This document shows, one piece after another, positions 1,593-20,625 of a DNA stretch of 24,412 bases. Made by a program: the position numbers and the translations under genes. The stretch lies in IMG/VR virus record IMGVR_UViG_3300001473_000108, positions 1 to 24,412 of that record. One strand, written 5' to 3'. Each line of letters starts with the position of its first letter. Within the stretch, counting starts at the first letter, position 1. The notes under the pieces were generated by a model that saw only the letters and a list, made by a program, of their open reading frames with translations, did no database searches and was not told where the DNA came from. The stretch is from a virus.

Positions 1593-3224
1593 ATGTATGA
1601 CCGCGCCAAAGCCGAGCGCCCGGTGCGCTTCTACGAGCGTCTGCTTAGGCTCACTGCGGGGCGGTTCCTCGGCAAGCCGTTCCAGCTCGCTGCCTGGCAG
1701 GCGTTCGCGATCACGCAGATCTTCGGCCACGTCGACTCCAACGGTGAGCGGCTCGTCTCTGAAGCCTTCATCCAGATCGCGAAGAAGAACGGCAAGTCCG
1801 AGTGGGCGGCCGGACTCGCGCTCTATCTGTTGTTGGCCGACAACGAGCCGGCGGCCGAGATCTACGGCGCCGCCGCATCCCGCGCCCAAGCGGGGCTCGT
1901 GTTCAACGTGGCGGCCAAGATGGTGGGCCAGTCGCGCGAGCTACATGACCGGTTGAAGGTGTTCCGGCGCTCGCAGCGCATCGTGAAGCGGGCCGATCCT
2001 TGGAGTTTCTACCAGGTGATCTCGGCCGACGCCAACACCGGCGACGGCGTCAACCCGCACGCCTGCATCTTCGACGAGATCCACCGGCAGCGACATACGG
2101 AGCTGTACAACGTCCTCAAGTTCGGCATGTCGGCGCGATCGCAGGGCCTCATGCTCGGGATCACGACCGCCGGCGCACAGGACGCCTCGCCCCTCGCTCG
2201 TGGGCTCTACGAGAAGGCGCGGCGCGTGCAGCGCGGTGAGCTGAAGGACCCGAGCTTCTTCGGGCTGGTCTTCGAGGGCGATCAGAAGCGATGGCAGAAC
2301 CGTGGCAAGCCCGGTACCGCTCAGAGCCGCGAGGCGATCCTGTCGGGCAAGGCCAAGAGTCCGTGGAAGCGAAAGCCGACCGGCTGGTACGCAGCCAACC
2401 CCTCGCTTGAAGGCAACCCCGGGGGCTTCCTCCGCCTCGCAGATCTCGAATCGGACTGCCGAGACGCCGAGCAGAGTCCGGCCCAGCTGAACGACTTCCT
2501 CCGTCTTCGGCTCGACCTGTGGACCGAGTCGGTCGTGCGCTGGATCCCGCAAGAGAAGTGGGACAGCTGCAAAGGCGACGTCTATGAAGCCGACTACTAC
2601 GGCGGCCGCCGTTGCTTCATCGGCGGCGATCTGTCGAGTACTCGCGACGTCACCGCGATCGTTTACCTGATCGAAGACGGCGCCGGGTGGACTCTGCTCC
2701 CCAAGCTCTACCTGCCGGAAGTCGGCGTCGAGCTGCGTTCGCGGGCCGACGGCGTGCCCTATGCGCACTGGGCCGCACAGGGCTATCTCACCCTAACTCC
2801 GGGCCCCACGATCAACTACGACTACATCCTCCGCGACGTGCTGGAACTCTCAAAGATTTTCTCCGTCGATTCGGTTACGTTCGACAGATGGAACGCCCAA
2901 GGGCTGGCGCAGGACCTCGACGACGAGGGCTTTACGGTCCGGCTGATCTCCCAAGGGTTCGGGGACATGTCGCCGGCGGCGAAGGAGTTCGAGCGGTTGG
3001 TCTATGCGGGCGAGCTGATCCACGGAGGGAATCCGTTGCTCGACTGGATGGTCAGCTGCACTGAGGTCGCGACGAACACGACCGGCGAGATCCGGCCGAA
3101 GAAGCCGGACCGGCAGACGTCGACGAAGCGGATCGACGGAGTGGTCGCGGCGATCAACGCGGTGACGGGACTGATGCGGGACGAAGGAGACGGCGGGATT
3201 GGCATCACGGTTCTCAGTGCTTAG
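1593..3224 (+). CDS. Phage terminase large subunit (HK97-type)
   Basis: This 543-residue ATPase/nuclease packages DNA into the prohead through the portal. Residues 11-41 (VRFYERLLRL and GKPFQLAAWQ) match the adenine-binding N-terminus of Terminase_1 proteins. A Walker A-like motif AKKNGKSE sits at 63-70, and Walker B ACIFDEIH at 157-164 gives Asp161 and catalytic Glu162. The C-terminal RNase H-like nuclease is marked by GGDLSSTRDVTAIV (about 345-358), VTFDRWNAQG and a late RIDGVVAAINA carrying the last acidic ligand. An in-frame TAG directly precedes the ATG, fixing the earliest start; no clear ribosome-binding site is visible. The N-terminus is on the short side for the family. Its last 26 nt overlap the next gene. 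Confidence 0.95.
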   Translation: MYDRAKAERPVRFYERLLRLTAGRFLGKPFQLAAWQAFAITQIFGHVDSNGERLVSEAFIQIAKKNGKSEWAAGLALYLLLADNEPAAEIYGAAASRAQAGLVFNVAAKMVGQSRELHDRLKVFRRSQRIVKRADPWSFYQVISADANTGDGVNPHACIFDEIHRQRHTELYNVLKFGMSARSQGLMLGITTAGAQDASPLARGLYEKARRVQRGELKDPSFFGLVFEGDQKRWQNRGKPGTAQSREAILSGKAKSPWKRKPTGWYAANPSLEGNPGGFLRLADLESDCRDAEQSPAQLNDFLRLRLDLWTESVVRWIPQEKWDSCKGDVYEADYYGGRRCFIGGDLSSTRDVTAIVYLIEDGAGWTLLPKLYLPEVGVELRSRADGVPYAHWAAQGYLTLTPGPTINYDYILRDVLELSKIFSVDSVTFDRWNAQGLAQDLDDEGFTVRLISQGFGDMSPAAKEFERLVYAGELIHGGNPLLDWMVSCTEVATNTTGEIRPKKPDRQTSTKRIDGVVAAINAVTGLMRDEGDGGIGITVLSA

Positions 3225-3402
3225 GCAGAGCCAGTTGCGGCACGTCGCCGCGATTGCCTTGGCGTTCCTGCCGGACGTCTTGTTGCTGCTCGGGCTTGGA
3301 GGGCTGTTCGTCGGTCTGGAGCGGATCCATCACGGTCTCGGCTGGGCCGTCAATGGAGCGTTGCTGGTCGGGATCGGCCTGCTCAAGGGGAGGGCCGTCT
3401 AG
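3199..3402 (+). CDS. Small two-span membrane protein between TerL and portal
   Basis: A 67-residue product with two hydrophobic segments, roughly residues 15-38 and 47-61, separated by a short loop containing ERIHHG. It starts at TTG 3199 inside the large-terminase gene; a GTG at 3217 is an in-frame alternative, also overlapping the terminase stop. It ends directly before the portal ATG at 3403. Small hydrophobic proteins in this slot are familiar from siphophage genomes, but their role is not established to my knowledge. The call rests on position, tight packing and topology. Confidence 0.7.
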   Translation: MASRFSVLRQSQLRHVAAIALAFLPDVLLLLGLGGLFVGLERIHHGLGWAVNGALLVGIGLLKGRAV

Positions 3403-5289
3403 ATGTTCCTCGCCGACGCCCTCAGTCCTCGACAGCTTCGCTCGAACCTGGAGAACCCGAGCGTCCCGCTGATCGAAGCCTTCACCGGGGGCATGTCGAC
3501 CTATACTGGCCGGTTCGTCTCCGAGCAAACGTTGACGCAGCTGTCGGTCGTCTTCGGGATCTTGAAGATTTACTCGGAAAGCTCCCGCCAGCTGCCGTTG
3601 AACCTCTACCGGATCGCAGCCGACGGCTCGCGCACGCTGTCGAACGACGACCCGCGGTCGCGGCTGCTCAACTTCGCGGTGAACCCGTTCATGAACGCCG
3701 ACGTATTCCGTGGGCTGATCCTCTCGCACGTGTTGGGTTGGGGCAACTTCTACGCCGAGATCGAGTTCAACCAGGCGATGATCCCGACGGCGCTGTGGCC
3801 GCTTCCTCCGAGCCGAGTCCAGCGCAAGCTGGACCTCGCGCGCATGAGCGACCTGTACGAGTTCTACGCCGACGACGGGCAAACGATCACGATTCCGGCC
3901 GAGCGCATGCTACATGTCATCGGCCCAAGCTTCGACGGTTATCACGGGGTCTCGCCGCTGCGACACTTCAAGCAGACCGGCGCCCTCGGCCTAGCACTCG
4001 AGGAATACACGGCTCGGTTCGCCGGAAACGATATGCAACCGACCGGCGTGCTCTTGGCTCCGGGGGCCATGTCCAGCGAGAAGCGGACCAGCTTGCTCGA
4101 AGGCTGGCGGGAAGGCTTCTCGGGCATGGAGAACAAGCATAAGATCGCTGTGCTCTCCGGCGGAGTCGAGTACAAGCAGATCACGATCGACCCGGCCAGC
4201 TCGCAGCTGCTCGAAACTCGCAAGTTTACGAACGAGGAGTTCTGCCGGCTGTACCGCTGCCCGCCGCACATGCTGGCGATCCTCGATCAGGCGAGCTTCA
4301 ACAACGTCGAGATCCTCGACATCGGCTTCGTGAAGCACTCGCTGCGGCCGTTGCTGAAGGCGATCGAGTGCGCGCTGATCGTGAGCCTGTTCACACCGGG
4401 TGACTGGATGCGCTGGCGGTTTGAGCACGACGTCTCCGACTTGCTGCAAGGCGATCCGGAGAAGCAGGCGAAGGTCGACGAACTGCACGTCCGCATCGGA
4501 GCGAAGAACTCGAACGAGATTCGCCGACGGCTGGGCCTCAACCCGCGAGCGGACGGTCTCGGCGACCGCTACATGCAGTCGGTGCAGTTCATGGTCGCCG
4601 GCGCGGACGAACCGGAAGAGGATCCGGACGCCGAGCCCGAACCGGAAGCCGACGACGGCGCCGACGAGCGCAGCGTGCAAGCCGCTCGCTCGCGACTGCG
4701 GATCCAGAAGTCGACCGCGCTGCGGGGACTGGTCGAGGCGGCGATCTCGCGGGTCGTCGCGATGGAAGAGCGCGAGGTCCGAGCGGCGACGAAGAAGAAC
4801 CGAGATCTCGGCCAGGCGCTGCGCGGTCGCACGGCCGACATGACCCGGCAGATGGCGCCCGCCTTGGAGGCCACGCGCGAGCAGCTCGTCGAGGCCATCC
4901 GCGCCGAACTCGGGATCGACGATGAGACGCCGACTCCGGAGACCAAGAGCGGCGGCCTACGTTCCGCCACCTGGTGGGCGAACCGGCACGTCGCCGAGAC
5001 GCTGCGAGTACTCGAGGAGTCCGATTCGATCGAAGACCAGCTCGAGGAGTTCCGCTCCAGCCGCGCTGCGGCCGAGGCCGCTTCGGAGCATCGAAGGTTC
5101 TGCTCGGCCGTCGCGGCCGATCTGTTCGCCGCCTTTGGAGTGCGCAAGCTCCGTTGGGTCGTCGTCGGCCGTTGCAAGAGTTGCGGCGATCGCGAGAACC
5201 AGACGGTCCAGGTTGGCCAACGCTTCGCCGGTGCGAAGAAGCATCCGCCGTTCGACCAGGACTGCGACTGCATGCTGTTTCCGGCCTGA
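3403..5289 (+). CDS. HK97-type portal protein with C-terminal MuF-like extension
   Basis: The portal forms the dodecameric ring at the unique vertex through which DNA is packaged. The first ~400 of 628 residues have the portal order: an N-terminal helix, SSRQLPLNLYRI (about 60-71), an insert with WPLPPSRVQRK, YHGVSPLRH, and the segment EEFCRLYRCPPHMLAI (about 281-296), a recognisable portal feature. An acidic linker (EEDPDAEPEPEADD) follows near 409. The last ~200 residues are extra: long charged helices, then RCKSCGDRE and PPFDQDCDCML at the C-terminus. This Cys/His arrangement resembles the ending of Mu F-type minor head proteins, so I read the gene as a portal-MuF fusion. Typical HK97 portals stop around 400-450 residues. 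The protease gene starts 15 nt downstream. Confidence 0.92.
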   Translation: MFLADALSPRQLRSNLENPSVPLIEAFTGGMSTYTGRFVSEQTLTQLSVVFGILKIYSESSRQLPLNLYRIAADGSRTLSNDDPRSRLLNFAVNPFMNADVFRGLILSHVLGWGNFYAEIEFNQAMIPTALWPLPPSRVQRKLDLARMSDLYEFYADDGQTITIPAERMLHVIGPSFDGYHGVSPLRHFKQTGALGLALEEYTARFAGNDMQPTGVLLAPGAMSSEKRTSLLEGWREGFSGMENKHKIAVLSGGVEYKQITIDPASSQLLETRKFTNEEFCRLYRCPPHMLAILDQASFNNVEILDIGFVKHSLRPLLKAIECALIVSLFTPGDWMRWRFEHDVSDLLQGDPEKQAKVDELHVRIGAKNSNEIRRRLGLNPRADGLGDRYMQSVQFMVAGADEPEEDPDAEPEPEADDGADERSVQAARSRLRIQKSTALRGLVEAAISRVVAMEEREVRAATKKNRDLGQALRGRTADMTRQMAPALEATREQLVEAIRAELGIDDETPTPETKSGGLRSATWWANRHVAETLRVLEESDSIEDQLEEFRSSRAAAEAASEHRRFCSAVAADLFAAFGVRKLRWVVVGRCKSCGDRENQTVQVGQRFAGAKKHPPFDQDCDCMLFPA

Positions 5290-5303
5290 GGGGAGGTTTT
5301 CTG

Positions 5304-5873
5304 ATGGATCTAGCCAACGTGAACTACGAACGCCGCTCGACGCCGATCTCCGCGCTCGAACTCCGTGACGACGGCGACAAGACCGTGATCGAGGGCCTGG
5401 TCGTCCCGTTCGGACAACGGTCCGAAGACATGGGCTTCTTCACCGAGGAGTTCCGGGGGATCACTCCGGATCCCGAGAACGTCTTCGCGTTGTGGGCCCA
5501 CGATGTACGGGATCCGCTCGGATCGACTCGCGAGGGCGCGCTCTCGTTGAAGGTTGAGACGCGGGGCCTCGTGATGCGGCTCGAGAAGCCGGTGATCAGC
5601 GCGGAGCGGATGGAGATGCTCCGGCGCGGGATCTTGCCGAACGCCTCGTTCGGGTTCGTCGACGCCACGGCCGAATGGGTCGAGGAAGAAGGGAAGGAAC
5701 ACCGGGTCATCCACGACGCGAAGCTGATCGAGGTCTCGGTCGGCGTGGCCTTCCCGGCCTACAAACAGACCGACATCAAGGCCGCCCAGCGCTCGCTTGA
5801 GGCCGCACGCGAGGAGCGCTGGAGAGTCGACCAGCAGCTGATGGAGATGGAGGCGCGGGTCCGCACCGCGTAA
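5304..5873 (+). CDS. HK97-type prohead maturation protease
   Basis: This 189-residue S78-type serine protease would cleave scaffold and capsid domains during head maturation. A plausible catalytic triad is visible: His66 in FALWAHD, Ser115 in NASFGF, and Glu143 in KLIEVSVGVAFPAY. DPLGSTREG (70-78) is the usual segment after the His motif. The ATG at 5304 is preceded by GGGGAGG at good spacing, favouring it over the longer open frame that runs back into the portal gene. The C-terminal helix (from about 158) is charged. In other phages the major capsid gene follows directly; here it does not. Confidence 0.93.
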   Translation: MDLANVNYERRSTPISALELRDDGDKTVIEGLVVPFGQRSEDMGFFTEEFRGITPDPENVFALWAHDVRDPLGSTREGALSLKVETRGLVMRLEKPVISAERMEMLRRGILPNASFGFVDATAEWVEEEGKEHRVIHDAKLIEVSVGVAFPAYKQTDIKAAQRSLEAAREERWRVDQQLMEMEARVRTA

Positions 5874-5902
5874 AGAGGGAGAGAGGAAACGGAGGACTGA
5901 AA

Positions 5903-6676
5903 ATGCTTCAACGAAAGACACCCCTAATCGCTGTGGCCGCCGTCGCGCTGGCCGCGGTCTTCGTGTTGGCGCCGCGGCTGTCTGAGCCGCCAGGCGCTCT
6001 GGCGGCGAACGTCTTCTCGACGCCCGACGTCGAGTTCATGGACGACTTTCTCGGCACCGAGTTTCTGAAGAGCGAGGCCGGTTCGGACGGCGTGTGGTCG
6101 ACGACCGAGACGGCGCTGAACAACGCGATTGCGGTGGATCCCGACGCCGAGAACGGCGTACTGGTCTTGCAGCTCGACGCCGACGTGAACGCCGAGGAAG
6201 CGACCGTCTACTGGAACGACCAACGCGGGATTGACCTCAACCAAGACGCCTACGTCGAGATGAGGGTACAGGCGACCGTCCTGCCGACGCTGACCGCGGA
6301 GGTGGTCTTCGGGCTCGCCGGCGATCGCGCGGCGGCCGCGGACTCTGTCGCCGAACATGCCTGGTTCAAACTCGACGGATCGGGCGCCGTCGTGATGGAG
6401 TCGGACGACACGACGAACGACAACGACGACGCGGTGACCAACGTCACGTTTGCGACCGACGTCTGGTACACGATTCGGATCGACTTCTCGGATCTGGCGG
6501 ACGTGAAGTTCTACGTCGACTCGGGCCAGGTCTCGGCCGGACAAACGTTCGACATGTCGAACCTGACGACCGGCGAGGCGATCATGCAGCCGTACGTGAT
6601 GCTGTTCAAGGGCGCCGACGCCGGGCTCGGGACCTTCAAGGTCGATTACGTGCGGGTGGTGAGCCGGCGGACCTAG
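5903..6676 (+). CDS. Signal-bearing beta-rich structural-type protein
   Basis: The 257-residue product has a strong ribosome-binding site (GGAGG about 8 nt before ATG). Its N-terminal hydrophobic segment (residues 8-24) is followed by ALAAN, a plausible signal-peptidase site near residue 34, which is odd for a gene in a head module. The rest alternates short beta-like segments with DDFLG (47-51), FGLAGDRAAAA, WYTIRIDFSDL and the ending VDYVRVVSRR. I associate this ending with lectin/jelly-roll-like phage structural or surface proteins. It is not an HK97 capsid fold by any motif I can see. It may be a decoration, receptor-binding or secreted lysogenic-conversion protein. It is the last gene before a 13-bp hairpin. 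Confidence 0.7.
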   Translation: MLQRKTPLIAVAAVALAAVFVLAPRLSEPPGALAANVFSTPDVEFMDDFLGTEFLKSEAGSDGVWSTTETALNNAIAVDPDAENGVLVLQLDADVNAEEATVYWNDQRGIDLNQDAYVEMRVQATVLPTLTAEVVFGLAGDRAAAADSVAEHAWFKLDGSGAVVMESDDTTNDNDDAVTNVTFATDVWYTIRIDFSDLADVKFYVDSGQVSAGQTFDMSNLTTGEAIMQPYVMLFKGADAGLGTFKVDYVRVVSRRT

Positions 6677-6685
6677 TTCTCTAAC

Positions 6686-6723
6686 GGTCTAGCTCCCGTG
6701 GGTTGCGTTGCGGGAGCTAGACC
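6686..6723 (+). terminator. Strong hairpin after the structural module
   Basis: A perfect 13-bp inverted repeat, GGTCTAGCTCCCG at 6686-6698 and CGGGAGCTAGACC at 6711-6723, closes a 12-nt loop, starting 10 nt after the stop of the preceding gene. No T-tract follows (ACCAAACC), so termination would be atypical, perhaps bidirectional or factor-assisted, or the hairpin may protect the mRNA 3' end. It divides the packaging block from the accessory block. Confidence 0.65.
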
Positions 6724-6967
6724 AAACCGTCCCCGGCACTCGGTGTAGAAGGGCGCCGGAGCGGCAAACAAGCATAGCGGATCTCGGCTCTGGCTAGGGG
6801 CCTGTGGAAAGCTCCTCGAACTGGCCGATGCAACTGAAGAGTTCGGTGGACTGGCCTCGGTTGCAAGGGGGCCGCCAGTCCACCGAAGTAGATCGAGGAT
6901 GCCTTGGGGCAAGCTCGAACCACGACGAGCATGTTAGCCAACGTCCACGAACGGAGACCGAAATTCC
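6724..6967. other. Structured intergenic region, candidate RNA element
   Basis: No convincing gene is seen between the terminator hairpin and the holin-like gene. The region contains a perfect 14-bp inverted repeat (6842-6855 with 6874-6887). The loop carries GTTGCA (6860-6865), complementary to an upstream TGCAAC (6829-6834), which would allow a pseudoknot. It could be a small RNA, a leader or a protein-binding site. Such a long non-coding stretch is unusual in this compact sequence. Confidence 0.45.
6842..6887. repeat. Perfect 14-bp inverted repeat
   Basis: TTCGGTGGACTGGC at 6842-6855 is the exact reverse complement of GCCAGTCCACCGAA at 6874-6887, with an 18-nt loop. No T-run follows on the plus strand. 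An arm-like ACTGGCC also occurs upstream at 6820-6826. Confidence 0.8.
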
Positions 6968-7171
6968 TTGGACCTCGAACACACTCTCGCAATCCTCTCG
7001 CTCATCACGATGGGCGGCACCTGGCTCGGCGCCTTCCTGGCGGTCAAGCACGGGCTGAACGGCGCTCGAAGCGACATCGCGGAGATCCGCACGCAGGTCG
7101 GCAAACAGGGCGAGCTGCTGACCGACGTGGACAAGAGGATGGCCGTGTTGGAATCGCGTGTGGAGAAATGA
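6968..7171 (+). CDS. Small holin-like protein: one membrane span plus coiled coil
   Basis: The 67-residue product has one membrane segment at about residues 6-28 followed by an amphipathic helix (about 33-66) with heptad-like spacing through IAEIRTQV and VDKRMAVLESRVEK. This resembles XhlA/haemolysin-type and related small phage lysis or anchoring proteins. The start is TTG 6968, with GGAGA about 12 nt upstream, a weak context. By location it could be the holin for the M15 peptidase, although that gene is 5.7 kb away on the opposite strand. The function is inference from topology. Confidence 0.6.
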   Translation: MDLEHTLAILSLITMGGTWLGAFLAVKHGLNGARSDIAEIRTQVGKQGELLTDVDKRMAVLESRVEK

Positions 7172-7245
7172 GTTGCAGGGCTAGCTGGACGCCCGGGCAA
7201 ACGTCATGCTACTCTCTGCGAGTTTAGAGCATACTTGGAGAATTT

Positions 7246-7845
7246 ATGAGATTGCCTGTTGTTTTTGTCGGTTCGGCAAGTGAAACCGGATCGATAGTTC
7301 CCGCAATCCAGCGGAATATGGAGAAGGACGCCTACGTGCTGGACTGGAAAAATGCGTTCACGGTTAGTCACTACACGATCCAGGATCTTCAGGAAAGGGT
7401 TCAGCAGGCCGATTTTGCCATATTTGACCTGACTGCGGTCGGTCAGCGAGCGGAGCGCGATAGCGTCACGCCTGCTGCGAATCAGAACGTGTTGTTTGAG
7501 ATTGGCCTCTTTATGGGAGTCCTTGGAAGAGACCGCACGTTCCTTCTCGTGAACGAGGACGCTCCACCAAGCCTGCCGAGTGACCTCGAAGGCGTTACCT
7601 ACGAGAAATACCGTCCAGACGCTTCCAATATGCGAAACGCACTTGGCCCAGCCTGCGCAACCTTTAGCGCTCGAGTGCGGGAACCTACTGGAATTCATGA
7701 GTTCCGTGCGGTTTGCGAAAGTTCGGATGATCTGCTGATGACGTCGACCATGTTCTGGGAAACGGCCGTCTCGGGGTCGCAGCGCGACGAGGCGTTCGCC
7801 TCGAGAAACATCGAAGTGAGATCCCGGCTTCTACCAGTGCCATGA
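7246..7845 (+). CDS. TIR-like nucleotide-binding protein, putative NADase effector
   Basis: The 199-residue product has the pattern of the bacterial TIR-like family often annotated as predicted nucleotide-binding protein: beta-1 LPVVFVGSAS (3-12), YTIQDLQERVQQADFAIFDL (43-62), NVLFEIGLFMGVLGR (81-95) and LPSDLEG (110-116). Glu85 is the candidate catalytic glutamate by analogy with TIR NADases that act in CBASS, Pycsar and TIR-STING systems. Residues beyond about 140 are not recognised. GGAG lies 6 nt before the ATG. Its stop overlaps the next ATG (ATGA), so the two genes form a coupled pair. The sequence looks less GC-rich than the phage core, consistent with an acquired moron. It likely depletes NAD on activation; the trigger is unknown. 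Confidence 0.78.
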   Translation: MRLPVVFVGSASETGSIVPAIQRNMEKDAYVLDWKNAFTVSHYTIQDLQERVQQADFAIFDLTAVGQRAERDSVTPAANQNVLFEIGLFMGVLGRDRTFLLVNEDAPPSLPSDLEGVTYEKYRPDASNMRNALGPACATFSARVREPTGIHEFRAVCESSDDLLMTSTMFWETAVSGSQRDEAFASRNIEVRSRLLPVP

Positions 7846-8624
7846 CAACCGGCAAAAAGGGTTTCGGCGAGACCGCCGAGGCGTTGGCGCGAAATCCACT
7901 CGGCATCATTGCCCTCTTCATCGTCCTGGTGTACGGTTTCGCTTCGTTCGTCGTATCCAGCGGCCACTCGCTTACGCCAGAAGAGCGCCTTCCTCTGATC
8001 TATTTCCTGGTCGCATTTCCGGTCTTGGTCCTTTGTGTATTTGCCTGGCTCGTCAGCAGCCATAGCACGAAGCTGTTTGCACCAAGCGATTTCCAGGACG
8101 AGGAGAACTACGTCAAGATGCAGATGGAAGTAGTGGCGTCGCTCACGGCGGCCACCGCTAAGACGGATACCTTGGCATCTGCGACCGATTTGGACCAAAT
8201 CGTAGAGGCCGTTCGTTCCGCTGGCCCGGCGGCCGTCGCCACGAGCGATGAGTGGCGAAACCAGATCCTCTGGGTCGATGATCGTCCAGAGAACAATACG
8301 CACGAGCGGAAGGCGTTCGAGGCTATGGGGCTTAGTTTCGTGTTAGCCCTTTCGACCGACGACGCGTTCGAGCGACTGTCGAGCAACAAGTTCGCTGCGA
8401 TCATCTCGGACATGGGGCGGCGCGAGGGGCCGCGAGAGGGTTATGTCCTTCTGGATCGGCTCCGAGCGGAGGGCGATGCGACTCCTCTGTTCTTCTACGC
8501 TGCTTCGAGCGCCCCTGAGCACAAGCGCGAGACACGTGAGCACGGCGGACAGGGTTGCACAAGACACGCACAAGAGTTGTTCGAAATGGTCACTCGCGCA
8601 GTGATCCTGAGGCAAGCCAACTAG
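7842..8624 (+). CDS. Membrane-anchored receiver-domain protein, partner of TIR gene
   Basis: The 260-residue product has two membrane spans, about 19-38 and 50-71, followed by SSHSTKLFAPSDFQDEE and a linker, then a response-regulator receiver domain from about 141. ILWVDDRPENN (142-152) supplies the acidic pair Asp146/Asp147, AIISDMGRREG (186-196) the probable phosphoacceptor Asp190, and LFFYAAS (216-222) the switch region. The lysine-proline motif usual near the receiver end is not evident (EHGGQGCT at 233-240), so phosphorylation chemistry may differ. No output or kinase domain follows. Being translationally coupled to the TIR-like protein, it most likely senses a signal at the membrane and controls, or is controlled by, the TIR partner. 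No kinase gene is present here. Confidence 0.78.
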   Translation: MTTGKKGFGETAEALARNPLGIIALFIVLVYGFASFVVSSGHSLTPEERLPLIYFLVAFPVLVLCVFAWLVSSHSTKLFAPSDFQDEENYVKMQMEVVASLTAATAKTDTLASATDLDQIVEAVRSAGPAAVATSDEWRNQILWVDDRPENNTHERKAFEAMGLSFVLALSTDDAFERLSSNKFAAIISDMGRREGPREGYVLLDRLRAEGDATPLFFYAASSAPEHKRETREHGGQGCTRHAQELFEMVTRAVILRQAN

Positions 8625-9041: not shown

Positions 9042-9773
9042 CTATGATTTGATCAGCTTGCCTTCGTGCGACCGATAAAAGTCCGAGTTACGCTGTGCGA
9101 GGAGCTCGATCAGTTCGTCGAACACCATGTCAACTTCGATCGGATCGCTAGGGTTCCCGGCCAGGTAGAACTCGTAGCTGGGCATGAACGGGTTCGCGTC
9201 GACGAGGCAGATGTACATTCTCTCAAGCTGCTCGTCCCGTCCTGCTGGGTCTTCCCGCCCCGTAAACATCTGGAAGCGGGCGTGTGCGTTCAGAAACGTG
9301 GATTGCCGATTCTTAGAGTCGTCCTTGGCGGCTCCCCGATCAAAGAAGAACACGCCCGCTAGAACGGCGAACGGGAAACGCCGGTGTAGAGTGACGGATT
9401 CGAACAGCATGTCGCCGCGCCTGTTGGTCAGATTCTTTTGATAGTTGTTCGTGCGGCCGTCTGCGAAATTGATCGATTTGATCGATATCGCCAGCAGCAG
9501 TCCCGACTCCTCGGTGGCCCAAGTGACGTCTACTTTCTTGGCGCCAATCCCACCCGACATCCGGCGCTCTGCACCCGAGATACCCGCATCTCCGGGCGGC
9601 GCGGGAAGTGCACCTACCAATCCTCGTCTCCGTAGCTCCGCCCCGAAGGCGTACGCAACGCTCTTAGAGAGTTGCTCGGAATAGGCCTTCTTTTCACTGG
9701 CTTTTGCGCTTTCGCCCGGCTTCGGAGGCAGGTCCTTCAAAGCCGCAGTCAGGAGATCGCTGGCCTTACTCAC
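9042..9773 (-). CDS. Putative type II restriction endonuclease (PD-(D/E)XK-like)
   Basis: I recognise this only by pattern and partnership. It overlaps the end of an N6-adenine DNA methyltransferase gene. I start it at GTG 9773, which overlaps the methylase stop and has GAGG 7 nt upstream, giving 243 residues; an ATG at 9824 gives 260. A candidate nuclease core is GAKKVDVTW (78-85, Asp82), then LLLAISIKS (92-100, Lys99), where the residue two before the lysine is Ser rather than Asp/Glu, a variant to check. NYQKNLTNRRGDMLFES (110-126) and HRRFPFAVLAGVFFFD (130-145) look strongly conserved-type. The product would cut unmodified invading DNA at the methylase's site. It is not obviously PaeR7I or XhoI; specificity is unknown. 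Confidence 0.7.
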   Translation of the reverse strand: MSKASDLLTAALKDLPPKPGESAKASEKKAYSEQLSKSVAYAFGAELRRRGLVGALPAPPGDAGISGAERRMSGGIGAKKVDVTWATEESGLLLAISIKSINFADGRTNNYQKNLTNRRGDMLFESVTLHRRFPFAVLAGVFFFDRGAAKDDSKNRQSTFLNAHARFQMFTGREDPAGRDEQLERMYICLVDANPFMPSYEFYLAGNPSDPIEVDMVFDELIELLAQRNSDFYRSHEGKLIKS

Positions 9774-11397
9774 CGCGGGTCCTCGATCGAGCCAAGCGGC
9801 GATCAAACATGGCTCGCCGAGCATCCCTAATGGAGTCGAGCTGACTCTTCCTCGTCTTTAGATGACCAGTTAGCAGCACTCGATCTACCAGGTTCACGAC
9901 CTTGGCGAGGTCTCCGTTTCGAAGGTGAAGGGCTAGCTGCGGCCGCAGCGACTCCAGCTCGCTCTCGACATCCCTTAGGGTCGATTCCGAAGGAACAGGC
10001 CAGAGGTCGGCTTCGCGCGGTTCGAGCTTTAGCATTCCGCCGCCATAAGAGCGGCCGCATAGCTCGGCTCCAAGTAGAGTGACGCTGTTCAGCATTGAAA
10101 TCGGCAGCAAGGCAGTTCCGATCGCTCGATTTCGGTCCTTGAGATAGACGCAGTGAATCGAATTGAGACATTCGACGCCGGCTTCGTTGGTCACAAGCCT
10201 GGGAGCGTCGTGATTCATGTACGTGAGAAACAGGTCTGGAGCCGGCACGCGAGGAACCTTCCACCAGGGACTTCGGACTCTACACTTGTACGCATCTTGG
10301 ACCCCGGACGCCTCGCCTGATGCAATGTAGACCTTGCTCGCAGCCGAAAGCTGCCTCTGATCGGGACGAAAAAGGTAGACGCGCGCCCCTAAGTCGCGCA
10401 TCTCTCGCCATGCCTTTTCCGAGAAGGTGAGGCCGCGCAAATGACGCGATCCTGGCGGCGAGATTCGAAGCAGGTCTTTCTTCCTTAGGCCCAGCTCGCT
10501 GGCCTCTGAAGCTGATAGACAGAAGAACCGATTGTTCCCGGTCACCATTCCGAGGCTTGTGTCGCCCCAGTCCTTCAGGGGAGTGAATGCGTCGCTCTCC
10601 ACCAGCGTCTTGTAGTTCTGCGCAGCACCTTGCGGGATGAGTGCAGAGAGCCACTTGTCTTGACCGTCTGGGCTCCACCGATGCCATCGAAGATTGGCAA
10701 GATCTTCTAGGTTCTGCGCTTGGTGAAGCTCACAGTGATCAGTGGGCCCAGTCCCCTCGGCGAGCAAAAGCACGACTTCCTCGGAAACACCCGGGAACGT
10801 ACGCTCTTCAAACAGGATCAGTTTCACGCTTCCGAAACGCTGCATTAGGAACCGGCGTACAGCAGCGGCATAGTTCACCGAGAGCAGCTCCGCGGGCAGC
10901 ACCAGTGCCAGTCTTCCAGCCGGTTTCAGGAAGGCCGCAGCATGAACTACGAATGGAGCCCACGAACTTGCGAGACCGGTCACTCGTACGCCCTGAGCGA
11001 GAGCTGCTCGGGCCCCTTTCTCGCGCGCTTCGCCAGCGAAACTTTGGTACCGAACGTACGGTGGGTTGCCGACAACAGCGTCAAACACTGGGTTTGGTTG
11101 CCGGTCGAAAAAGTCGCCGCAATCGAGCGCGGCGCCTGCGCCCACACGAAGCAGCTCCGCCTCGGCGTACCGAATCGACTCCCGATGGATGTCAATACCT
11201 TCGATCTGAGTCGGACTAGGCTCAGCCCCCAGTGCTCTTAATCGTTCGATCCCCGCGGTTAAGAAAACTGCCTCCCCGCAAGACGGCTCCAGCATCTTCT
11301 CGTCGTGGTGCCGAATGGCCCAACTCGCCAGAAACTCCGCTACGATCGGCGGCGTGAAGAACGCCCCTCGCTCCTTCCGATGCGCGACTTCAAGCAT
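9766..11397 (-). CDS. N6-adenine DNA methyltransferase of an R-M pair
   Basis: This 543-residue gamma-type adenine methyltransferase shows the SAM-binding motif EPSCGEAVFL (37-46), acidic GIDIH (67-71), DCGDFF (92-97) and the catalytic NPPY in VGNPPYVRYQ (109-118). The N-terminal ERGAFFTPP is typical of TaqI/Eco57I-class enzymes. The C-terminal half (from about 270), containing WGDTSLGMVTGNNRFF, would be the target-recognition domain. It lacks an N-terminal nuclease domain, so cleavage is left to the neighbouring 9042-9773 gene. The ATG at 11397 has no obvious ribosome-binding site. The pair is transcribed leftward, against the early operon, and looks less GC-rich than the phage core, suggesting acquisition as a unit. 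Confidence 0.9.
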   Translation of the reverse strand: MLEVAHRKERGAFFTPPIVAEFLASWAIRHHDEKMLEPSCGEAVFLTAGIERLRALGAEPSPTQIEGIDIHRESIRYAEAELLRVGAGAALDCGDFFDRQPNPVFDAVVGNPPYVRYQSFAGEAREKGARAALAQGVRVTGLASSWAPFVVHAAAFLKPAGRLALVLPAELLSVNYAAAVRRFLMQRFGSVKLILFEERTFPGVSEEVVLLLAEGTGPTDHCELHQAQNLEDLANLRWHRWSPDGQDKWLSALIPQGAAQNYKTLVESDAFTPLKDWGDTSLGMVTGNNRFFCLSASEASELGLRKKDLLRISPPGSRHLRGLTFSEKAWREMRDLGARVYLFRPDQRQLSAASKVYIASGEASGVQDAYKCRVRSPWWKVPRVPAPDLFLTYMNHDAPRLVTNEAGVECLNSIHCVYLKDRNRAIGTALLPISMLNSVTLLGAELCGRSYGGGMLKLEPREADLWPVPSESTLRDVESELESLRPQLALHLRNGDLAKVVNLVDRVLLTGHLKTRKSQLDSIRDARRAMFDRRLARSRTRGE

Positions 11398-11774: not shown

Positions 11775-12257
11775 TTAGCTTTCGGACATCTGCTCGCGCT
11801 CCACCTGTTTCCGAGTCTTGGCGTAGTCGTCCGCTGCGCCAACGGCTTCAAGCAGGATGCCGCGAAATGGGTTCTGCTTGTCCCGGAGCGCCGACAGAAC
11901 GAGGCGCACAACCTTCTCTTCGCGAGCTGTCCTAGGGCCTTGGTTCTCGTCGTCAGCGTCCTTCCCGGATAGATCTCTAGTGATCAGGCGCTCAACTTCG
12001 TCTAGCGACGGAGGACCCTCCTCGCCGAAGTGTTGGGTCCATAAGGCGACTGCGCTGAATAGTCGGAGGTATGGCTCAAGGCCTTCACGCGAGTAGCGGA
12101 AGCCCTCATCAATCTCCTCGTAGAACTCAAACGCCTGCCGAACGATGTCGGTGTAGGGCCGATCCAGAGATGTCGCGGCCAGTTTGAGATTCCGGCGCTG
12201 TTCCGGGGTAGCCCAGAAGAAAATTTTTACTCGTTCCGAATCAGGCATTTGAGGCAT
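11775..12257 (-). CDS. Ribbon-helix-helix-like regulator, leftward from the switch region
   Basis: The 160-residue product begins with SERVKIFFWATPEQRRNLKLAA-type sequence: a short beta strand, then helix-turn-helix elements through DRPYTDIVRQAFEFY, as in Arc/CopG ribbon-helix-helix or similar antitoxin N-termini. The rest is helical and charged without known motifs. I chose ATG 12257; ATG 12248 is an alternative 9 nt in. The gene is divergent from the 64-residue protein at 12339, and both share a control region packed with AGGCAC repeats. A role as lysogeny repressor of the early operon is inference; an antitoxin without a visible toxin is another option. Confidence 0.65.
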   Translation of the reverse strand: MPQMPDSERVKIFFWATPEQRRNLKLAATSLDRPYTDIVRQAFEFYEEIDEGFRYSREGLEPYLRLFSAVALWTQHFGEEGPPSLDEVERLITRDLSGKDADDENQGPRTAREEKVVRLVLSALRDKQNPFRGILLEAVGAADDYAKTRKQVEREQMSES

Positions 12258-12352
12258 ACATAGGTGCCTTGAGGCACATAGTACCTTGACAGTGAGGCAC
12301 CAAGGCACCACAATTGGTGCATCAGGGGCAGCCCCAATATGTCACAAGGCAC
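12243..12352. promoter_or_regulatory. Divergent operator array of AGGCAC/AGGCAT motifs
   Basis: Within 110 bp there are AGGCAT at 12243 and 12252, a perfect palindrome GTGCCT-TG-AGGCAC at 12264-12277, AGGCAC at 12295 and 12303 (8 bp apart), and AGGCAC at 12347 just inside the rightward gene. This lies between two divergent genes that both encode ribbon-helix-helix-like proteins, a family that binds such short repeated half-sites. It is the best candidate for the element's transcriptional switch. Confidence 0.65.
12286..12314 (+). promoter_or_regulatory. Candidate rightward early promoter
   Basis: TTGACA at 12286-12291 matches the -35 consensus exactly. A 17-bp spacer leads to CACAAT at 12309-12314 (4 of 6 in the -10 consensus). 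Two AGGCAC half-sites fall in the spacer, so a bound repressor would block polymerase. Transcription would start about 20 nt before the 12339 gene and drive the early operon. Confidence 0.6.
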
Positions 12353-12533
12353 CAAAACCAGCAATCACGTCGTGGTCAAGCTGAAGATCCCGACTGAGAT
12401 CCACCACCAACTCAAGGTCTTCGCGGTGCGCCGCGGCGTCTCGTTGCATGACACCTGCATCGAGTCGATCGCGGACTACCTGCAAAGGAACGCCGAGGCT
12501 GCGGACTCTCCTGTAGCTCAGTCGGCTGCCTAG
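12339..12533 (+). CDS. Small ribbon-helix-helix (Arc/CopG-like) DNA-binding protein
   Basis: The 64-residue product has the compact layout of a ribbon-helix-helix protein: beta strand HVVVKLKIP (10-18), helix A TEIHHQLKVFAVRRG (19-33), turn and helix B SLHDTCIESIADYLQ (35-49), then a short polar tail. It is the first gene of the long rightward operon, immediately after the candidate promoter and AGGCAC repeats. By analogy with phage switch regions it could be the Cro-like autoregulator of the early promoter. Start ATG 12339 has only a weak AGGGG upstream. Confidence 0.75.
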   Translation: MSQGTKTSNHVVVKLKIPTEIHHQLKVFAVRRGVSLHDTCIESIADYLQRNAEAADSPVAQSAA

Positions 12534-12542
12534 GAGACACGA

Positions 12543-12956
12543 ATGTCGCGCCTCCTGAGCAAGTTTCCGCCGGGCAAGGCGGAGTCGTCTACGGGCGATC
12601 TGGACCACCTGGGTCCGACCGCTAGGGTCATCTTGGACCGGTCGTCGGACCCAGCGCGAGAAGTGCTTCAGAAGCGCTTTCGTGCGGCTTGCGCTGCATG
12701 GAAGACCGCCACCGACAACACGAACGACGGCCTGGCCGATGCGCTCGGCTGTTCCGCACTTCAACTTAAGCACTGGCTCTCTTCTGATCGGAGCCGCCGG
12801 GTGCCCTCCGAAGTCGTCGACATCGTCGAGCGGATGGCGCAGCAGGCGAAATCAGGTCTCAGCCGCGACCAGATCATCGACGCGGTCGCTGATCTCTGCC
12901 GCGCCGAGGCGCGGTTTGACCGCATTCGAAAGATGCTACTGGAGGCCACGGCATGA
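12543..12956 (+). CDS. HTH-like phage protein, first of two tandem paralogues
   Basis: A 137-residue protein with AGGAG 6 nt before ATG. Its centre reads as a helix-turn-helix: RFRAACAAWKTA, then LADALGCSALQLKHWL followed by SSDRSRRVPSEV. The same order and the near-identical LSSD-x-SRRVP segment occur in the next gene, so the two are paralogues. The helical C-terminus has no known motif. It overlaps the next gene by ATGA. Likely an early transcription regulator. Confidence 0.65.
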   Translation: MSRLLSKFPPGKAESSTGDLDHLGPTARVILDRSSDPAREVLQKRFRAACAAWKTATDNTNDGLADALGCSALQLKHWLSSDRSRRVPSEVVDIVERMAQQAKSGLSRDQIIDAVADLCRAEARFDRIRKMLLEATA

Positions 12957-13297
12957 TGGCCCCGACCGCGGCCGCCAAGCAACGGCTTCGTCAGGCGTAC
13001 TACGCGTGGCGAGTCGCCAAGCAAAACCGCTACAAGCGAGAAGACTTCGCGGCCGAACTCGACATTACGTTCTTCGCCTTGAAGCAGATGCTCAGTTCGG
13101 ACGCCAGCCGACGGGTACCTAATCGGCTTCTGATTCGTGCCGAAGCGCTCGCCCGCCAAGCTCTCCAAGAATCCCTGCGGGAGTTTGAGGCCTACGTACG
13201 TGGCAGTGAGCTGACGCCCGAGGAGCCGCTTCCGTCCAGTGCCGATCCCGCGTTTGCGCTGCGCGATCTTCCGGAGTTCCAGGGGGAAGCAGCTTGA
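12953..13297 (+). CDS. HTH-like phage protein, second tandem paralogue
   Basis: This 114-residue product aligns with its upstream neighbour through RLRQAYYAWRVAK, the candidate recognition region FAAELDITFFALKQML and SSDASRRVPNRL. It lacks the ~35-residue N-terminal extension of the first copy and has a different, acidic/proline-rich C-terminus. The start is ATG 12953 inside the previous stop; ATG 12956 is a one-codon alternative. It overlaps the following TTG start by 4 nt, so expression is coupled. Confidence 0.65.
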   Translation: MMAPTAAAKQRLRQAYYAWRVAKQNRYKREDFAAELDITFFALKQMLSSDASRRVPNRLLIRAEALARQALQESLREFEAYVRGSELTPEEPLPSSADPAFALRDLPEFQGEAA

Positions 13298-19755: not shown

Positions 19756-20625
19756 ATGCTCAGCGGAATCGTCAAACTGCTACGTGGAGCCGGAGAACAC
19801 CTGGCCGCTCTCTCAGATGCCGAACTACGGGTGTTCATTATCTTGCTGCTCAATGCGGATTCCACCGGACAGAACCGCGGCGTCTTCGTAGGGACGCAGC
19901 TCGATCTCGCCAGACTTGCAGGCGGCTCTACATCGCGCGTCAATCGCGCGGTGAGAGACCTGATCAAGAGGCGTTGGATTGCCAAAGTTCCGCGGGTAGG
20001 ATTCGAGATTCTCGGGTACGACGGGGACGAGGACGGGGCGCCGGAAGCCGCTCCGAAGAAGGTCGAAGAATCCCGCCAGCGGGATATTCAGACCCCGCAA
20101 AAAATCCCGCCAGCGGGATATTTGGAGCGCGAGAAAGGCGAAAGGAAATCCCGCCAGCGGGATATTTCCGATGCGAAAAAATCCCGCCAGCGGGATATTC
20201 GGGGGTCACAAAAATCCCGCCAGCGGGATTTACCACCGAGCAGCGGGATCGCTACACCACTTCTTTCTATAGAAGAAGAGAAGAAGATAAGAACCCCCCC
20301 CTTACCCCCCCCTGCTGGGGGGGAATTGGTGGGGGGAGAACACGCCAAAGCTTTCGATCTTTGGTACGGGGTTTACCCTCGCAAGGTCGCCAAGCAGGAC
20401 GCCCGCAAAGCCTTCCTCGGCGTCATCCGAACGGCCGACGATTGGCGGCTGTTGCTGGCCAACTCGAAGGCCTGGATCGAGAGCGATTTCGCCGAGCGCT
20501 CGACGGACAAGATCCCGTACCCGGCGACCTTCCTGCGGCGAGGAGATTGGCAGGAACCGCCCCCCGAAAGGCGCGGCGGATCGACCCGGCTGCGCAACGC
20601 CGTCGACGAACTGAGGGACCTGTGA
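19756..20625 (+). CDS. Winged-helix replication initiator (lambda O-like), gene contains origin
   Basis: The 289-residue protein begins with a winged-helix DNA-binding domain: ALSDAELRVFIILLLNA (18-34), LDLARLAGGSTSRVNRAVRDL (about 49-69), RRWIAKVPRVGFEIL. The middle is low complexity and contains five near-identical short segments encoded by DNA iterons (SRQRDI four times in one frame, IPPAGY in another). After a Pro/Gly stretch, the C-terminal domain AFDLWYGVYPRKVAKQDARKAF ... IPYPATFLRRGDW resembles the helicase-recruiting end of phage replication proteins. Lambda O has the same design, with its origin inside the gene. The next gene overlaps by 1 nt (TGATG) and sits where the helicase loader would be. 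Confidence 0.85.
   Translation: MLSGIVKLLRGAGEHLAALSDAELRVFIILLLNADSTGQNRGVFVGTQLDLARLAGGSTSRVNRAVRDLIKRRWIAKVPRVGFEILGYDGDEDGAPEAAPKKVEESRQRDIQTPQKIPPAGYLEREKGERKSRQRDISDAKKSRQRDIRGSQKSRQRDLPPSSGIATPLLSIEEEKKIRTPPLPPPAGGELVGGEHAKAFDLWYGVYPRKVAKQDARKAFLGVIRTADDWRLLLANSKAWIESDFAERSTDKIPYPATFLRRGDWQEPPPERRGGSTRLRNAVDELRDL
20069..20293. other. Probable replication origin: five palindromic iterons plus AT-rich tract
   Basis: The 18-mer TCCCGCCAGCGGGATATT occurs at 20071, 20105, 20149 and 20182, and in variant form at 20215, with a half-site near 20242. Each has a 7-bp inverted repeat, ATCCCGC-CA-GCGGGAT, usually preceded by A's. Start-to-start spacing is 34, 44, 33 and 33 bp, close to whole helical turns. 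Downstream, 20261-20293 is an A/T- and purine-rich stretch (with palindrome TTCTATAGAA), matching the melting region that follows iterons in lambda-like origins. Copy 2 is translated in a different frame from the others, so DNA sequence, not peptide, is being conserved. Confidence 0.85.
20294..20336. repeat. Poly-C/poly-G hairpin tract beside the origin
   Basis: The run is C8, TTA, C8, TGCT, G7, AATTGGT, G6. The second C-run and the G7 can form a perfect 7-bp G:C hairpin with a 4-nt loop, and the first C-run can pair with the last G-run around it. G-quadruplex or i-motif formation is also possible. It encodes a Pro/Gly stretch in the initiator and is a likely site for slippage. Confidence 0.75.

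Follow-up and report, generated by a model that had tools for sequence, protein, structure and literature searches.

A candidate operator array over an early promoter of an uncultured phage, next to a gene for an Arc/Mnt-type ribbon-helix-helix protein

Ribbon-helix-helix (RHH) regulators of viruses recognise repeated sites close to the promoters of their own genes and work by occluding the promoter, in many cases cooperatively (PMC5569661). In archaeal viruses, the sites overlap the regulators' own promoters, further sites are filled cooperatively, and transcription is blocked (PMC5569661). One RHH protein, F55 of SSV1, is reported to keep the virus lysogenic by occupying tandem repeats at its own and other early promoters (PMC5569661). 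A second precedent is the immI region of P22, where Mnt acts as the repressor of both arc and ant, and Arc as a repressor of mnt and a moderator of ant (PMC11016777). In the immI locus that we compared, a 90-bp gap separates the divergent mnt and arc genes, and the Arc operator lies inside the ant promoter.

Here we describe a locus with features of these systems in an uncultured phage. The window analysed, 24,412 bases, is the entire IMG/VR record IMGVR_UViG_3300001473_000108, which is classed as linear and is probably a fragment; it carries a tyrosine integrase gene. A leftward gene for a 160-aa protein and a rightward gene for a 64-aa protein diverge from ATG codons at 12257 and 12339, leaving an intergenic gap of 81 bp (frames read by eye).

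The likeness to P22 immI lies in the divergence of small candidate regulators approximately 80-90 bp apart, in a first rightward gene that encodes an Arc/Mnt-type RHH protein, and in a rightward promoter that encloses operator sites, putative ones in our case. The operators differ: immI contains a single operator each for Arc and Mnt, with no hexamer in more than two copies in the intergenic region, whereas the present locus carries a repeated array. The gene under immI control is an antirepressor, and the circuit ranks second to a CI-type switch; here, in place of ant, the downstream genes encode HTH-like proteins, followed by exonuclease, recombination and replication genes. The immI arrangement of two divergent RHH genes is reproduced on one side, as the rightward partner alone is Arc/Mnt-like and the 160-aa leftward protein is not detectably Mnt-like.

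SSV1 F55 offers the combination of an RHH protein with repeats at an early promoter, and binding at our locus is predicted; F55 differs in its archaeal host and promoter type, and in having ATAGATAG repeats at several promoters where the array here is in one place. The locus resembles lambda-type CI/Cro regions in its repeated putative operators, its divergent control region and its position ahead of an early operon. Unlike those regions, its first rightward gene encodes an RHH rather than an HTH protein, and no CI-type repressor was found among the ORFs scanned in the record; as the record is probably a fragment, this does not establish that the phage lacks one. With the plasmid repressors CopG and ORF56, to which the sequence match is weak, the locus would share a replication operon headed by the gene for a small RHH autorepressor, autorepression being our inference here. 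The difference is that this is a phage operon with an integrase, and a plasmid replicon is not shown. Because RHH-based viral switches are already known, the locus would represent a variant of them, distinguished by one array of several sites at a main early promoter.

The left part of the record carries genes for the terminase, portal and head protease. A match to the P27-type terminase small subunit (PF05119, E=1.4e-11) lies at 477-1181 on the minus strand, opposite the large terminase, which is an unusual orientation. No tail genes were seen across 1593-8624, where the protease is followed by a 257-aa concanavalin-like protein and then by accessory genes; this organisation fits a fragment and a tail-less or satellite element alike. 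At 7246-8624, a gene for a TIR-domain protein (PF10137 CAP12/Pycsar TIR, E=8.6e-23) overlaps one with a weak receiver-domain match, and the two may constitute a defence unit between the structural and regulatory genes. Rightward from 12339, the genes include those for the exonuclease, a phrog_3657 protein, an HNH protein, a replication initiator and the tyrosine integrase. Five palindromic copies of approximately AAATCCCGCCAGCGGGATAT, approximately 33 bp apart and followed by a purine-rich tract, sit at 20069-20244 within the replication-initiator-like gene (19756-20625) and resemble an iteron origin of the lambda O type. The whole window yielded no matches in Rfam and tRNA scans.

Querying with the terminase gave no match in GTDB genomes; in IMG/VR the hits were near-identical fragments or sister fragments (L005, L006), which end short of the control region. 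The terminase, portal and protease region of L005 is identical to that of the record, and this contig reaches 760 bases further left. Searches for relatives of the regulators returned nothing usable, whether in IMG/VR (64-aa, 160-aa and HTH-like (HTH1) proteins), in GTDB genomes (160-aa protein) or by tblastn of phage and plasmid records. PF01402 was looked for in 20 of the fetched records and was absent from them. An exact search of IMG/VR for AGGCACCAAGGCACC returned 30 contigs; in those whose context was read, the matches fell in coding sequence or unrelated repeats, and no comparable divergent array was seen.

The region 12243-12352 had been predicted to contain at least five AGGCAC and two AGGCAT sites, with one AGGCAC pair forming a perfect palindrome, and the exact positions bear this out. 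The palindrome is the inverted repeat GTGCCT-TG-AGGCAC, with 6-bp arms and a 2-nt centre; its arms lie at 12264-12269 on the minus strand (matrix rank 1 in the window) and 12272-12277 on the plus strand (rank 4). Two further plus-strand copies at 12295-12300 and 12303-12308, recovered by both hexamer search and matrix, form a direct repeat with a period of 8 bp. The fifth copy (12347-12352, plus strand, matrix rank 2) is inside the rightward ORF at codons 3-5. A degenerate AGGTAC site at 12281-12286 on the minus strand is a weak matrix match (rank 47). Both AGGCAT variants are on the plus strand: the one at 12252-12257 doubles as the ATG-CCT with which the leftward ORF opens and is the ninth non-training match, and the one at 12243-12248 has a low matrix score, not above 2, and is a Met-Pro codon pair of the same ORF. 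Because these two sites are exactly Met-Pro codons at the leftward ORF start, they are weaker evidence.

The weight matrix was built from the five AGGCAC sites and run over the whole 24.4-kb record, comprising 48,797 non-training positions. In leave-one-out runs, each omitted site ranked among the top four non-training positions. The best of all 48,797 non-training positions was CTGATGCACCAA at 12317-12322 on the minus strand, in the same region, for which the chance is approximately 0.0045. This sixth site, absent from the original prediction, coincides with the predicted transcription start.

The array overlies a sigma-70-like promoter on the plus strand (12286-12314), which was the sole promoter match in the 2 kb scanned. 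Its TTGACA (12286-12291) and CACAAT (12309-12314) are separated by 17 nt and match the consensus at 10 of 12 positions, where shuffles give 0.4 expected matches in 2 kb; the -10 hexamer matches at just 4 of 6. The direct pair at 12295 and 12303 falls within the 17-nt spacer, as had been proposed; the broader claim, that both genes share a control region in which an operator-like array covers the promoter of a long rightward early operon, is likewise supported. We conclude that the array is likely an operator. A small inverted repeat read from the sequence, GGGGCAGCCCC, lies in the short 5' leader on the same strand (12325-12335) and adjoins the probable ribosome-binding site of the 64-aa gene; any function for it is conjectural.

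Sequence comparison places the 64-aa protein (12339-12533, plus strand), encoded by the first gene of the rightward operon, in the Arc/Mnt-type RHH class. It matches phrog_582 (E=4e-5), as do P22 Arc (2e-5) and Mnt (6e-6). Smith-Waterman alignment with P22 Mnt gave Z=6.75, a value reached by none of 1000 shuffles; the relation is a distant one, since BLASTP reports no alignment between the two. The Pfam RHH_10 score of the protein falls under the cut-off. A single-chain model (mean pLDDT 69.5) contains helices at residues 19-31 and 38-55 and no strand, and Foldseek with this model found nothing below 0.001. We infer that a missing strand is to be expected in a single chain because the RHH strand forms only in the dimer.

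These features are consistent with an operator-promoter region of the rightward early operon that is autorepressed through the array by the 64-aa RHH protein, a reading in which we have moderate confidence. RNA polymerase would start at approximately 12321 from TTGACA-17-CACAAT, in the midst of at least six AGGCAC-type half-sites, which are spread from ahead of the -35 through the spacer and the start site to the first codons of the first gene. The spacing is 8 bp in both the inverted and the direct pair. Dimers of the 64-aa protein would most likely fill the half-sites side by side and exclude polymerase, putting the whole operon under negative autoregulation of the Arc/Cro/CopG kind. A protein on the leftmost sites would, in addition, mask the beginning of the divergent gene; in this way one array could balance both directions. 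The repeats, the promoter match and the RHH class of the 64-aa protein are observed. That the RHH protein occludes the promoter by binding these repeats is the predicted part of the scheme; autoregulation by it is likely, and control of lysis and lysogeny by this locus is possible. The array could also be bound by the neighbouring HTH-like proteins or by a host factor.

The chief alternative gives the leading part to the 160-aa protein, which would silence the early promoter through the array as a Mnt- or CI-like repressor, with the 64-aa RHH protein as its lytic antagonist in the manner of Arc or Cro. We regard this two-protein lysogeny switch as possible, though clearly less probable than autorepression. 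The layout is divergent and places the 160-aa gene (11775-12257, minus strand; taken from the ORF list, with ATG 12257 assigned by codon reading) in the position of a repressor, the operon includes exonuclease, replication initiator and integrase genes, and P22 immI provides a precedent (PMC11016777). The P22 Mnt/Arc pair is, however, a secondary immunity region only, no sigma-70-like leftward promoter matching at 8 or more of 12 positions was found in 12200-12420, and no lysogen or host is known. The 160-aa protein, moreover, has no homology to any DNA-binding family: it gave no match in Pfam, PHROGs, NCBIfam or the PDB beyond one chance-level PHROG hit to its C-terminus (E=0.12), and its alignments with P22 Mnt, Arc and the 64-aa protein were at shuffle level. 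Its structure model, at pLDDT 48.8, is too low in confidence to use, although its helix lengths are RHH-like. By eye, the first 55 residues could be an RHH domain, which no test supports, and neither sequence nor fold matching assigned the protein to that class. Thus, of the two different RHH-like proteins in the original prediction, the rightward one stands, on phrog_582 and the Mnt alignment, and the leftward one has no detectable RHH similarity. A part for the 160-aa protein as the lysogeny-side partner, and with it lysis-lysogeny control, is a guess.

To the left of this gene, 9042-11397 encodes a type II restriction-modification pair whose endonuclease belongs to no Pfam or PADLOC family. 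The endonuclease is 55% identical to the product of a gene that follows the methylase on plasmids of Bradyrhizobium and Mycobacterium, an arrangement seen in two of three plasmid relatives. We rejected the 160-aa gene as a control gene of this cassette, as none of the three plasmid relatives of the methylase has such a gene upstream. Because the restriction-modification relatives lack it, the 160-aa gene is more likely part of the phage control region, a point in favour of the autorepression reading and the two-protein switch alike.

Binding of the array by an HTH-like protein of Cro/CII type, with the RHH protein regulating something else, appears unlikely. The candidates are a 137-aa protein (12543-12956) and its 114-aa paralogue (12953-13297), 35% identical to each other and encoded on the plus strand directly after the RHH gene. 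They show weak YdaS- and CII-like scores that are, however, under any cut-off. Against this alternative, it is typical of RHH proteins to control their own synthesis through sites at the promoter of their gene, and the array extends into the RHH gene itself.

RHH proteins act in both partition and plasmid copy control. The repeats might accordingly be a partition or copy-control site, and the 64-aa protein a centromere-binding or CopG-type protein, as suggested by its weak PDB match to the plasmid protein ORF56 (E=0.055) and by the replication initiator in the operon. We consider this very unlikely, as the scanned ORFs showed no ParA/ParM-type ATPase, the record carries an integrase gene, and the sites overlap the promoter and form no separate array.

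The count of AGGCAC in the whole window shows no enrichment (9 seen, 11 expected), and 37 of 300 whole-window shuffles (12%) give some hexamer five copies in some 110-bp window. In local dinucleotide shuffles of the divergent intergenic region, any hexamer occurs five times at a frequency of at most 1e-4. The unusual point is the location at the divergent intergenic region, to which the cluster is confined, together with this local rarity. Although the whole-window shuffles and the Met-Pro reading of the AGGCAT sites would allow for chance clustering with a start-codon coincidence, the exact placement of the cluster at a divergent promoter, the local shuffles and the independent sixth site at 12317 make that explanation scarcely credible.

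As it stands, the locus is a well-placed operator array made of ordinary parts. Should the main early promoter prove to be governed by the RHH protein through a multi-site array, RHH control of the P22 immI type would extend from a side circuit to the primary early operon of a bacterial phage, and searches for CI-type repressors would be expected to miss some temperate phages. A stronger form of the idea, to which we assign a low probability, is a primary lysis-lysogeny switch of a bacterial phage without a CI-type repressor, in which a shared array of AGGCAC half-sites is contested by an RHH protein of the Arc/Mnt type and a divergently encoded protein unrelated to it.
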